Of a stretch of DNA of 64,000 bases, positions 10,865-15,305 are shown piece after piece (position 1 is the stretch's first letter; each line of letters opens with the position of its first letter). Origin of the DNA: Anaerolineales bacterium (GTDB lineage Bacteria; Chloroflexota; Anaerolineae; Anaerolineales; UBA4823); the NCBI GenBank assembly GCA_003105035.1, contig PQAL01000033.1, positions 79,613-143,612 of the forward strand, given 5' to 3'. The position numbers and the translations under genes were made by a program. The notes beneath the pieces are model-generated. The model was not told where the DNA came from. It saw only the letters and a list, made by a program, of their open reading frames with translations, and did no database searches.

Positions 10865-12784
10865 ATGATCTGCCCTCACTGCCAGACGGATAACCCCGAT
10901 GCCGCCCACTTCTGCTTGCGATGCGGGCAGGAATTACTCCGTAAGTGCAGCAACTGCCATTCAGAGCTACCGATGGGGGCTCATTTTTGCATGCAATGTG
11001 GACAGCCAGTGCAGACCGAGACCAGCATTGACAGCCAGCGTTTGAGCCAGCTGGCTGCAGAAGCTCCCGGTGAGCTGGTGCAAAAAATTCGTACCGAACT
11101 ATCGCTGGTGGCGAAGCGGCCGGCTGGAGCACTGCGGGAACAGCGGGTAGTCACCACCCTCCTTGCAGATGTGGTCGGCTCAACCGGCCTGTCAGAGAAG
11201 CTGGGCCTGGAAGCCTGGACCGAATTGATCAACACCGCCTTCGATTGCATCGCCAAGGTTATATATAAATATGAGGGCACAATCGCCCGGATTCTGGGTG
11301 ATTCGTTGCTGGCGTTCTTCGGGGCGCCGCTGGCACATGAAGATGACCCTCAAAGGGCCATCTCAGCTGGCTTGGAAATTATCGAGCAAATCCGCCTCAA
11401 TTGCCATGAACATAATGCCACGCATGCTGTCGATTTTAAAATGCGTGTGTGCATCAATACCGGGCCGGTGATCATCGGCGCGGTGGGTGGAGACCTGACC
11501 TACGATTACAACGCGTCTGGCGCGACCATCAACCTCACCTCCCGCATCAAGTTTGCCGGCAAGCCGATGAGCGTATTAGTCACCGGTAACACCTATCCTT
11601 TTATATCCCCGTACTTCGAATGTCACGACTTGGGCTCCGTCAGTGTGAAGGGCGTGTCAAAACCGATGCGTGTCTACCAGGTGATCTCGGCACGCTCCAC
11701 CCTCGGGCGCACGCGTGGCTTTTCGGAACTGGCCAGCCCGATGGTCGGTCGCCAGCAGGAGTTGGAAACATTGATGAACACCTGCGATGCGGTGAGGGCT
11801 GGGTTAGGCCGGGCGGTCCTGATCACGGGTGAGCCGGGTCTGGGCAAAACTCGCCTGATCCAGGAATGGCAAAAAGCCGTTGAAGCGAAAAATGAGCGCG
11901 GTTACCGTCAGACCCCTGCCAGGAGCTGGGTGACTGGACGCTGCTTATCCTACCAGCAAGGCCAGGCTTACCAATTACTGGTAGATCTTTTACGTAACAT
12001 GTTTGGCGTGACAGCTGGTGACGATGAAGGGCAAACACGGGCCACGCTAGAGATGCAACTGCAAAGCCTTCTGGGTGATCGGGCAGGGGAGATATTTCCC
12101 TTCCTGGCTCACTTGCTGGGATTGAAATTAGAGGGGGAGGCCTGGCAGCGCACCCTGGTCACCGATCCGCAGGCAATGCAGATGCTCTATCTCAAGGCCA
12201 TGGAACAGTTACTGCAAGCTATCATGCAGCACACCTCCCTTATCCTTGTGCTGGAAGACCTGCATTGGGCGGATGACTCATCCATCGAGGTCTTCACCAA
12301 GCTGCTGCCGTTAGTGAACAGTGGGCCGATCCTTTTCTGCCTGGTGACGCGCATGGAACGCGAATCAGCGGGCTGGAAACTGGTCACGGCTGCCCGCCAG
12401 CTCTTGGGTGGAAGTCTGACCGAAATCAGCCTGCAGAGCCTGTCTGAGAAAGACAGCCGCTCATTGGTGGCCAACCTGCTGTCAATAGAAACGCTGGAGA
12501 ACAGGGTGCGTGGGCTGATCCTCGACAAGGCTGAAGGTAACCCCTTGTTCCTCGAAGAGGTCATCCGCATGTTGATCGACCGGGGGGCGATTTCTTTCAA
12601 GGATGGCGCCTGGATCACTGAGCAGGAGATCAGCCCACGTGACATCCCCGATAACCTGCAAGGGCTTTTGCTGGCCCGGATCGACCGCTTGCCATCCGAA
12701 GCACGCTACACCTTGATGGTGGCATCGGTGATCGGGCGCAACTTCCTGGTCAAGGTCCTGTCGCAAGTACTTGGAGGAGCATAA
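10865..12784 (+). CDS. Zinc-ribbon / class III cyclase-like / AAA ATPase, N-terminal half of a split signalling protein
   Basis: A 639-residue protein. Residues 1-48 are a double zinc ribbon with four CxxC pairs (CPHC, CLRC, CSNC, CMQC). Residues 92-275 are a class III nucleotidyl cyclase-like domain with metal-binding Asp102 (LLADVVGST) and Asp146 (ILGDSLLAFFG), and with Asn223 and Arg227 at the transition-state positions. The usual purine-selecting residues are not obvious, so cyclase activity is uncertain. From about 290 an AAA_16-type ATPase follows, with Walker A GEPGLGKT (322-329) and Walker B LILVLEDLHWADD (Asp465). The frame stops within the helical part of this ATPase; the expected continuation is the next gene, one base out of frame. 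Confidence 0.9.
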   Translation: MICPHCQTDNPDAAHFCLRCGQELLRKCSNCHSELPMGAHFCMQCGQPVQTETSIDSQRLSQLAAEAPGELVQKIRTELSLVAKRPAGALREQRVVTTLLADVVGSTGLSEKLGLEAWTELINTAFDCIAKVIYKYEGTIARILGDSLLAFFGAPLAHEDDPQRAISAGLEIIEQIRLNCHEHNATHAVDFKMRVCINTGPVIIGAVGGDLTYDYNASGATINLTSRIKFAGKPMSVLVTGNTYPFISPYFECHDLGSVSVKGVSKPMRVYQVISARSTLGRTRGFSELASPMVGRQQELETLMNTCDAVRAGLGRAVLITGEPGLGKTRLIQEWQKAVEAKNERGYRQTPARSWVTGRCLSYQQGQAYQLLVDLLRNMFGVTAGDDEGQTRATLEMQLQSLLGDRAGEIFPFLAHLLGLKLEGEAWQRTLVTDPQAMQMLYLKAMEQLLQAIMQHTSLILVLEDLHWADDSSIEVFTKLLPLVNSGPILFCLVTRMERESAGWKLVTAARQLLGGSLTEISLQSLSEKDSRSLVANLLSIETLENRVRGLILDKAEGNPLFLEEVIRMLIDRGAISFKDGAWITEQEISPRDIPDNLQGLLLARIDRLPSEARYTLMVASVIGRNFLVKVLSQVLGGA

Positions 12785-12788
12785 TATG
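12773..12788 (+). promoter_or_regulatory. Shine-Dalgarno and start that divide the signalling protein
   Basis: GGAGGAG at 12773-12779 is followed after 6 bases by ATG at 12786. The upstream stop TAA (12782-12784) lies one base before that ATG (TAATATG). Ribosomes ending on the first gene could restart at once. The strength and position of the site suggest real two-gene translation instead of a sequencing slip. Confidence 0.7.
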
Positions 12789-15305
12789 GGCTTATTCAAC
12801 AATCTGAGCGCATTGGAATCTGCCGGGTTGATCCAGGTGGCGAAGGTCGAGCCTGATCTCGAGTACCTGTTCCGGCATTCGATGGTTCAGGATGCTGCTT
12901 ATGCCGCCCTGCTGGATAGCGACCGAAAGCGCCTGCACCTGGCAGTCGGCAATGCCATTGAACAACTCTATCCAGGCAGGAAGAAGGAATTTGCTGCCAT
13001 TCTCGGCAACCATTTTAAACTTGCCGGTGAGGAAGAGCATGCCCTGAGCTATTTCATCCTTGCGGGCGATGAAGCCTTAAAGGTCTATGCCAACGCTGAG
13101 GCTGAGCTGCAATATCGCAGTGCCCTCGAGTTAAGCTGTTGCTCTGGGCTAGACATCGCCTGGCTTTATTCCGGGCTGGGTGAAGCGCTATACCGCCAGA
13201 ACCGTTTTGTGGAGTCAGCCGATGCTTTCCAGGAAGGGATAAAGATTTATCGTGCTTGTGGCGACAATGACGGGGTGGCACGCCTGTATGCCCGGCTGGC
13301 ACGCGTGGAGTGGTATGACAGTAAGCGACCTAAGGGGCTGCAAACCTGCCTGGTGGGCATGAAAGAAGTGCGCGATGCCCCCGATAGCCAGGGCAAAGCG
13401 ATGCTGATCCACGAGACTGCCCGTGCCTACTACTTCAATGGGAATTCAGAGAAAGCCCTTCCGTTGTGCCGGCAAGCCCTGAAAATCGCGGAGCAGCTTG
13501 GCGATACATATCTGCAGGCCGATAGCATGGCTACTCTGGGTATCCTGTCTGGCATCACCCCCGAAGAATCGCTGGAGGCTTTGGGTAAGGCGGTCGATCT
13601 TGCGGAAGCCAACGGCTACATGCAAGTGGCGCTCAGAGCTTATATCAACCTGGGCACAATGACCCGTACCTGGCGAGGAGATAACGAGACGGCCTTGCGA
13701 TGCTTTCGCCGTTCTGCTGAGCTGGGCAAGCTGCGCGGTGTTGCTTCGGAGGAGCAATTGGGCCTCTCAAGCTATATCAGCTGCCTGTTCGCTCCTGGAA
13801 GGCTAAAAGAGGTCAGGGCAGAGCTGCCAAATTTGGAAAAGCTGGCCAGCCAGATGCCCAATCCTGAGCCGAACCTGGTCTTGATCAGCTATCTTAAGGC
13901 GATCCTGACAATCCATGAAGGAGATTGGGATAGCGGTCTGGCAATCTTCTGGCAAATCCTGCAGCGTTATCGTGAGTTGAAAAACAAGGAATCAGAATTG
14001 AGCGTGCTTGATGAGCTTAGCTGGATGATCCTGGAAAAGCAACGCTGGGGAGAACCAGCCGACCTTGTAAAAGTGGAAGAGCTGCTTAATACCGTCCTGG
14101 AAATCGTCAAACACAAAAGTTCGAAGGAGCTGATCTGGGTTTACCCGCGCATGGCCATGCTGAAAGCCCGCCAGGGGAAAATTGAAGAAGCTGAACAATG
14201 GTTAGAAAGAGCACAGCAACGGATGCCAGGTTCCAGCTCGATTTGGGATGAACGCTTCATGCAGGAATGCACCATGGAGATCGATTTTGCCAGGCGAGAT
14301 TGGGATCAGGCCCTTAGCCAGGTTGAAAAAATCACCCGCACGGATGCGCGCCTGGGTTTCAGGGTAAATTATGCTCGCAGCTTACTGAGCTGGGGAGATA
14401 TGCTAATTATGCGAGGTCTTTCAGGTGACCTAGAAACAGCCGAAACCCTGTTACGGCAGGCAATCGAAGAGTGCAATGCCATGGGTATTGGTCACTACCC
14501 GGATATTGCCGGAGCTAAGCTGGAGGTCATCGGGGCAAGGCAGCACGCTCGCACGCTTGATCATGAGAAGATGACTAGGGAGCTGAAAAAAGCCCGCCGT
14601 GTGCAAGAAAGCCTGCTGCCCGATAAACCGCCCCAACTGGCCGGTTGGGATCTCACGGTGATGCTTGAACCTGCCCACGAGACCAGTGGTGATTTTTACG
14701 ATTTTCTGATGCTGCCGGATGGGAAGTTAGGCTTGATTATTGCCGATGTTACCGACAAAGGCACCGGTGCGGCTTTATATATGGCATTAAGCCGTTCCCT
14801 GTGGCGTACATTCGCGGTAAACCATCCCGAAGAGCCTCAACAAACCCTGGCTGAAACCAACCAACGCATTATGGCAGATACGCACGGCGGACTATACATC
14901 ACCCTGTTTTACGGAATCCTCGAGCCCCAGGAAGGTGCTTTTCGGTTTTGCAACGCCGGGCACCTGCCTGGATTACTGCAACGCGCGAAGGATGGTGAGA
15001 TAGAGCAGCTTAAACGCACTGGTATCCCGCTGGGTGTGCTGGAAGCCGCCGGGTGGAGCAAAGAAGGGCTGATCATGGAGCCGGGGGATGCTCTCGTGTT
15101 GTACACCGACGGGATTACTGAGGCACAAAACAGCGCTGAAGAATTCTATGGCCTGGAGAGACTGCTGAAAACTTTAAAACGGGCACAGGGTAAACCTGCT
15201 GTTGAAATTCGCGACCTGATTTTGAGCGACTTGCGGAACTGGGTGGGGCAAGCAGAGCAGTTCGATGACATCTCCCTGATGGTACTGGTAAGGGAGAAGA
15301 AGTAA
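12786..15305 (+). CDS. AAA helical tail / TPR / SpoIIE-type PP2C phosphatase, C-terminal half of the split protein
   Basis: An 839-residue protein that begins in mid-domain. LSALESAGLI and DLEYLFRHSMVQDAAYAALL are the sequences that normally follow the AAA_16 domain in one-piece relatives. Residues of about 90-590 are helical TPR-like repeats. The C-terminal 230 residues are a SpoIIE/RsbU-type phosphatase: RRVQESLLP linker, SGDFYD, DVTDKGTGAALYMALSRS, DGITEA and FDDISLMVL provide the metal-binding aspartates. The output is therefore probably dephosphorylation of an anti-sigma-factor antagonist. No such antagonist or kinase is encoded nearby. The start at 12786 has an excellent Shine-Dalgarno; an upstream in-frame TTG at 12771 is less likely. 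Confidence 0.9.
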   Translation: MGLFNNLSALESAGLIQVAKVEPDLEYLFRHSMVQDAAYAALLDSDRKRLHLAVGNAIEQLYPGRKKEFAAILGNHFKLAGEEEHALSYFILAGDEALKVYANAEAELQYRSALELSCCSGLDIAWLYSGLGEALYRQNRFVESADAFQEGIKIYRACGDNDGVARLYARLARVEWYDSKRPKGLQTCLVGMKEVRDAPDSQGKAMLIHETARAYYFNGNSEKALPLCRQALKIAEQLGDTYLQADSMATLGILSGITPEESLEALGKAVDLAEANGYMQVALRAYINLGTMTRTWRGDNETALRCFRRSAELGKLRGVASEEQLGLSSYISCLFAPGRLKEVRAELPNLEKLASQMPNPEPNLVLISYLKAILTIHEGDWDSGLAIFWQILQRYRELKNKESELSVLDELSWMILEKQRWGEPADLVKVEELLNTVLEIVKHKSSKELIWVYPRMAMLKARQGKIEEAEQWLERAQQRMPGSSSIWDERFMQECTMEIDFARRDWDQALSQVEKITRTDARLGFRVNYARSLLSWGDMLIMRGLSGDLETAETLLRQAIEECNAMGIGHYPDIAGAKLEVIGARQHARTLDHEKMTRELKKARRVQESLLPDKPPQLAGWDLTVMLEPAHETSGDFYDFLMLPDGKLGLIIADVTDKGTGAALYMALSRSLWRTFAVNHPEEPQQTLAETNQRIMADTHGGLYITLFYGILEPQEGAFRFCNAGHLPGLLQRAKDGEIEQLKRTGIPLGVLEAAGWSKEGLIMEPGDALVLYTDGITEAQNSAEEFYGLERLLKTLKRAQGKPAVEIRDLILSDLRNWVGQAEQFDDISLMVLVREKK

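Follow-up and report, generated by a model that had tools for sequence, protein, structure and literature searches.

A probable two-chain STAND ATPase of Anaerolineales encoded by adjoining genes that divide its winged-helix domain

Introduction

The STAND switch, as represented by Apaf-1, NLRs and MalT, is thought of as a single chain whose winged-helix domain (WHD) clamps ADP. STAND ATPases with a TPR sensor (MalT, PH0952 and AfsR, with Apaf-1 and CED-4 as fold matches) are built in the order NBD-HD-WHD-arm-TPR (PMC6468293, PMC4381067). In PH0952, ADP lies between NBD-HD and the WHD; its phosphates are contacted by a WHD histidine, and helix H12 rests with its N-terminus against the P-loop (PMC6468293). 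The locus described here shares this order with them, along with the Walker A/B and GxP motifs, the WHD histidine and the predicted fold. In contrast to MalT, PH0952 and AfsR, its NOD is distributed over two chains cut inside the WHD, and its effectors are a cyclase and a SpoIIE phosphatase, one per chain.

A similar cyclase-ATPase-WHD-TPR backbone is found in the TOMM system kinase/cyclase fusion protein (TIGR03903), which aligns over both subunits. However, the score of 206.3 bits is far under the cut-off of 705.75 bits, the backbone is one chain there and two chains here, and a domain search of the N/C pair found no kinase domain. Closer are one-piece homologues in the genomes G017, G056, G401 and G947 and in family f14, which have the same domains in the same order at 33-55% identity, but on a single ORF. 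Natural gene fission, by which one ancestral chain is made as two fragments, is represented by split-Doa10, whose fragments were shown to reassemble (PMC3464245). Whereas split-Doa10 is a eukaryotic membrane protein with a 508-bp spacer, the genes studied here are bacterial, they touch (or overlap in relatives), the cut lies within a domain, and reassembly is what we infer. The junction resembles those of overlapping, translationally coupled gene pairs, which likewise have ATGA or TGATG junctions and a Shine-Dalgarno (SD) sequence before the stop codon (PMC6728339, PMC10666635; GeneTack clusters, PMC3711429). Such pairs usually join whole proteins or domains, whereas the boundary of the split STAND lies inside one. 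A search of the open-access literature returned nothing relevant on split STANDs or on this architecture.

Results and Discussion

Two adjoining genes encode the domains of a STAND ATPase

The window, i.e. the whole stretch of 64,000 nucleotides that was analysed, contains two consecutive genes, referred to as N-subunit and C-subunit genes, with the following features.

10865..12784, + strand: N-subunit gene, 639 aa; double zinc ribbon, class III nucleotide cyclase, STAND NBD-HD, winged-helix first half
11147..11683, + strand: class III nucleotide cyclase domain, two metal-site Asp motifs kept
11828..11851, + strand: Walker A GEPGLGKT of the N-subunit
12536..12544, + strand: GNP, the GxP motif that STANDs carry in their helical domain (motif definition from PMC6468293)
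12656..12772, + strand: winged-helix first half (H8, H9, S6, H10) at the N-subunit end, mapped from the model of a one-piece homologue
12773..12779, + strand: SD-like GGAGGAG, 6 nt 5' of the C-subunit ATG
12782..12788, + strand: junction TAATATG, a TAA stop and an ATG start with a single base between them; ATGA, GTGA, TGATG or TGAAATG in relatives
12786..15305, + strand: C-subunit gene, 839 aa; winged-helix second half, arm, TPR sensor, SpoIIE-type PP2C phosphatase
12786..12914, + strand: winged-helix second half (H11, wing, H12) at the C-subunit start, mapped from the model of a one-piece homologue
12876..12878, + strand: C-subunit His31, in FRH; corresponds to the WHD histidine with which STANDs contact the ADP phosphates (role from PMC6468293)
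14715..15287, + strand: SpoIIE phosphatase domain, metal-site Asp motifs kept

Both protein lengths are as given in the initial annotation. In the N-subunit, the Guanylate_cyc match scored 78.6 bits (cut-off 21.9), with the aspartates in LLADVVGST and ILGDSLLA. The AAA_16 match scored 80.3 bits (cut-off 32.6); Walker A GEPGLGKT and Walker B LEDLHWAD identify a STAND P-loop NBD, and the GxP motif was found in every row checked. The C-subunit has an arm and a repeat sensor, seen as TPR matches and as a helical solenoid in its model, and a SpoIIE match of 171.2 bits (cut-off 25) with the motifs SGDFYDF, IADVTDKG, LYTDG and FDD. FRH, with which the last WHD helix begins, is kept in each of the split members checked. 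Across the pair, every catalytic and nucleotide motif is intact. By these motifs, the locus product is a STAND ATPase of the Apaf-1/MalT type, with the domain order zinc ribbon, class III cyclase, NBD, HD, WHD, arm, TPR and SpoIIE phosphatase. PADLOC gave weak generic matches only, the best to Pycsar class III cyclases, and Rfam and tRNA scans of the whole window gave no matches.

The break falls inside the winged-helix domain

Structure was modelled for a fragment of the one-piece G401 protein (mean pLDDT 82.6) and for the C-subunit of the window alone. The best Foldseek PDB matches of the G401 model were Apaf-1, MalT and CED-4, and VIA-align placed PH0952 at Z 11.4, with many other AAA+ proteins (e.g. 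ORC) equal or higher. The WHD of the model begins with helices 329-338 and 342-354, strand 357-359 and helix 360-367; a loop separates these from helix 373-385, which is followed by a wing of two strands and by helix 405-413. It is this loop (368-373), the H10-H11 loop inside the WHD, that corresponds to the split position. As the Pfam AAA_16 match reaches no further than residue 491 of the N-subunit, the junction is located downstream of AAA_16 and not, as initially proposed, inside its helical part. A WHD that follows the HD and carries the ADP-contacting histidine is seen as a fold in the one-piece model and is divided over two chains in the window. A NOD on one polypeptide, a usual but not strictly defining STAND trait, is absent from these two ORFs. 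Little is missing at the break: against the one-chain TIGR03903 profile, the N-subunit match runs to position 799 and the C-subunit match starts at 810.

Since the cut lies within the WHD, it separates P-loop and GxP, carried by the N-subunit, from the ADP-contacting histidine of the C-subunit; the ADP pocket would be completed across both chains. When the C-subunit was modelled alone, the mean pLDDT was 88.2, while the first 30 residues reached 43-58 and the wing was absent. The same region of about 30 residues has a pLDDT of about 76-88 in the one-piece G401 model, a difference that may partly stem from the shallow alignment (13 rows) of the isolated half-WHD.

The same break recurs in related genomes

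The genus of the window is represented by a single genome in the collection, and relatives are only about 40-55% identical; full-length relatives of the C half in the family, order and class have about 40% identity. An N chain ending at the homologous residue was found in 12 genomes from 10 genera and 6 families. In G025, G003, G198, G183 and G447, a C open frame of about 865-942 aa is preceded by a separate N ORF. Searching with the N half added split N genes in G005, G026, G039, G101, G102 and G216, which were checked on the DNA. A search for related loci over genome contigs returned SpoIIE-domain relatives only, and a distant DNA search of plasmids gave no match. The C start occupies the identical alignment column in the window, G025, G026, G003, G198, G183 and G447. 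In 9 of the 12 split genomes the C gene starts within 5 nt of the N stop, mostly with overlapping stop and start codons (TAATATG, TGAAATG, ATGA, GTGA or TGATG; in G216, the ATG starts 5 nt past the last base of the stop).

Four of the split genomes (G005, G025, G026 and G183) are single contigs and the remainder are multi-contig drafts; as both kinds of assembly show the split, one kind of sequencing error is unlikely as its cause. According to the substitution ratios, purifying selection acts on both halves (dN/dS 0.10-0.11 for each between G198 and G183, and about 0.09 between G025 and G026). The initial annotation had suggested that the split may be real, giving a cyclase/ATPase and a TPR/phosphatase subunit, and had named conservation of the split point in related genomes as a check. 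That comparison bears the suggestion out, relatives being by no means all one-piece, and identifies the split as a real two-gene form conserved across about ten genera and not a sequencing error.

N and C genes stay adjacent while the other neighbours differ between most loci. A shared operon partner was considered and rejected, as neighbours vary; the exception is a cysteine desulfurase-like gene beside the pair in both G198 and G183. In G102 (L100 10506-12419) and G101 (L104 13373-15220), the N gene ends at the split point and no C gene is present in the flanks read; a partner encoded in trans or decay may account for this. The C gene of G026 (L103 9069-9848) is truncated at 259 aa past masked bases and is probably decayed.

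Start signals at the junction

TAA at 12782-12784 ends the N ORF and ATG at 12786-12788 opens the C ORF in the +1 phase, with one base between them and GGAGGAG 6 bases ahead, exactly as first annotated. The two frames overlap only at 12732-12784. An in-frame TTG at 12771 could give a C product of 844 aa; the starts of relatives match the ATG position instead. The SD duplex before 12786 has an energy of -9.3 kcal/mol; among 278 ATG/GTG codons that lie internally and off-frame, 1 equals it. The energies at the six N-to-C junctions that were measured ranged from -8.4 to -10.9 kcal/mol, within the top 1% of such codons, and only 10 of 445 off-frame stops combine an in-frame start at -4 to +8 nt with an SD of -6 or better. 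The view that a start site this good argues against a random frameshift is therefore sustained as far as the rarity of SD/start combinations among off-frame codons is concerned. It is weakened by the one-piece G401 gene, which reads CTG GGG GAA GAG (L-G-E-E) at the SD-like site: judging from these codons, the purine-rich stretch is partly a coding constraint. As one-piece relatives also have L-G-(E)-E codons there, the SD is by itself no proof of a split. By stop-start distance (start about -8 to +10 nt from the stop; PMC10666635), SD and conservation, the genes have the features of a translationally coupled heteromer pair, and coupled translation of N and C is predicted from them. Heteromer subunits are 4.5-8.1-fold enriched at short gene overlaps (PMC10666635).

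The phase of the junction is not conserved. The C frame is +1 in the window, G025 and G216 and -1 in G026, G003, G198, G183, G447 and G005; both phases thus occur within genus g20 (G025 and G026). As the phase flips direction, a conserved programmed frameshift is disfavoured and termination-reinitiation favoured.

Competing explanations

A recent single-base indel or assembly error in a one-piece gene, with SD and ATG arising by chance, would account for the downstream frame being one base off in a protein that has one-piece relatives, and the SD-like codons are in part explained by coding constraint. However, the break is repeated in 12 genomes, in single-contig and multi-contig assemblies alike, both halves are under purifying selection, and the C gene alone has been duplicated in tandem. 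This recurrence refutes such an error as a general account, and for the window itself we regard it as extremely improbable. Programmed ribosomal frameshifting, yielding a full-length fusion and a short N product as in prfB or dnaX, would be suited by the strong SD-like sequence just 5' of the stop and by the overlapping frames, but it is hard to reconcile with opposite C-frame phases even inside one genus or with an ATG or GTG start at the junction of every split pair, and no obvious slippery site is present in the window. We consider it very unlikely.

The split might also be real with proteins that work apart, a free cyclase/ATPase and a free TPR-phosphatase linked by co-expression only. N genes without a nearby C gene (G101 and G102), the free-standing C genes of G039 described below and the interchange of one-piece and split forms are all compatible with independent proteins. 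Nevertheless, the cut crosses a folded domain, so that half a winged helix remains on either chain; sequence is conserved in both halves, the FRH histidine included; the C half-domain is not predicted to fold alone; and the pair stays adjacent where other neighbours vary between most loci. Separate function is therefore judged unlikely, although less so than frameshifting. Our preferred reading is a STAND ATPase that is split by nature and probably works as an obligate heterodimer, with both subunits contributing at their interface to the ADP-closed state.

Proposed working of the split STAND ATPase

In such a heterodimer, ribosomes finishing the N-subunit would reinitiate at the touching start codon, and both chains would be produced jointly, keeping pace with each other. 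The two parts of the winged helix would then pair and rebuild the NOD. At rest, the P-loop and GxP of the N-subunit and the WHD histidine of the C-subunit would hold ADP between them. Ligand binding to the TPR sensor would open the NOD for ATP binding and oligomerisation, and this opening would control both effectors, the cyclase of the N-subunit and the SpoIIE phosphatase of the C-subunit. That the C part exists as a chain of its own is plausible, because the isolated arm-sensor polypeptide of MalT can be purified and binds its ligand (PMC4381067). As the sensor chain has its own gene, it could be duplicated, and one N-subunit would be served by two alternative C-subunits in some lineages.

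A conserved STAND cut in the WHD would allow closed, open and oligomeric states to be studied by mixing two proteins. It would also show how gene duplication could allow sensors to be exchanged, and would provide a clear natural case of a gene that was split within a folded domain, the split being maintained by start and stop codons that touch or overlap.

C genes as modules

In G447 (L045 6129-13125), two tandem C genes (838 and 839 aa) come after the N gene, and adjoining genes share 4 nt at each junction (GTGA, ATGA). The two C proteins are sisters (support 100/100), and the SD at the C1-to-C2 junction is weaker (-4.9 kcal/mol). In G005 (L101 8357-13835), N precedes two C genes in tandem (591 and 595 aa), both TPR-only and lacking a SpoIIE domain, with codon overlap at every N-C1-C2 junction. 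G216 has N and one TPR-only C gene. Two free-standing TPR-only C genes lie 6-8 kb from the N gene in G039 (L099 9372-13156). From these four layouts, we conclude that the C half, which starts with its part of the winged helix, acts as one unit in duplication and in the change of output domains. A combinatorial arrangement is put forward tentatively and is rather doubtful: a single cyclase/ATPase core, with its half of the winged helix, would be able to pair with any of several sensor subunits that supply the other half. If true, different TPR sensors and outputs would be exchangeable on one nucleotide switch, and dissociation of the sensor would be the on-signal. The free-standing C genes of G039 begin with half a winged helix, and broken N/C copies lie in between.

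One-piece relatives and history of the split

One-piece homologues, mentioned in the initial annotation, do exist: a single ORF of about 1430-1520 aa holds all domains in the four genomes named above and in ten genomes of family f14, every sampled member of which is one-piece. In the N tree, a clade of 20 rows (support 99/97) contains 11 split and eight one-piece rows and one cut by a contig end; G216 falls outside it. Because one-piece rows sit among split rows and the tree requires 6 changes of state, the two forms interconvert, and given this interchange the benefit of the split form may be little. The one-piece G017, placed beside the split G025, may be a re-fusion. A one-clade test of the SpoIIE type, which bears on a single origin of the split, gave a p-AU of 0.084.

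In the one-piece proteins of G324 (family f14; L049 4390-8736) and G947 (L051 4176-8471), the metal-site Asp motifs have disappeared from the cyclase domain, which is probably inactive in both. The genome of the window itself contains four one-piece cyclase-ATPase-TPR paralogues of about 1130-1230 aa (L009, L010, L011 and L012), two of them in tandem and none split.
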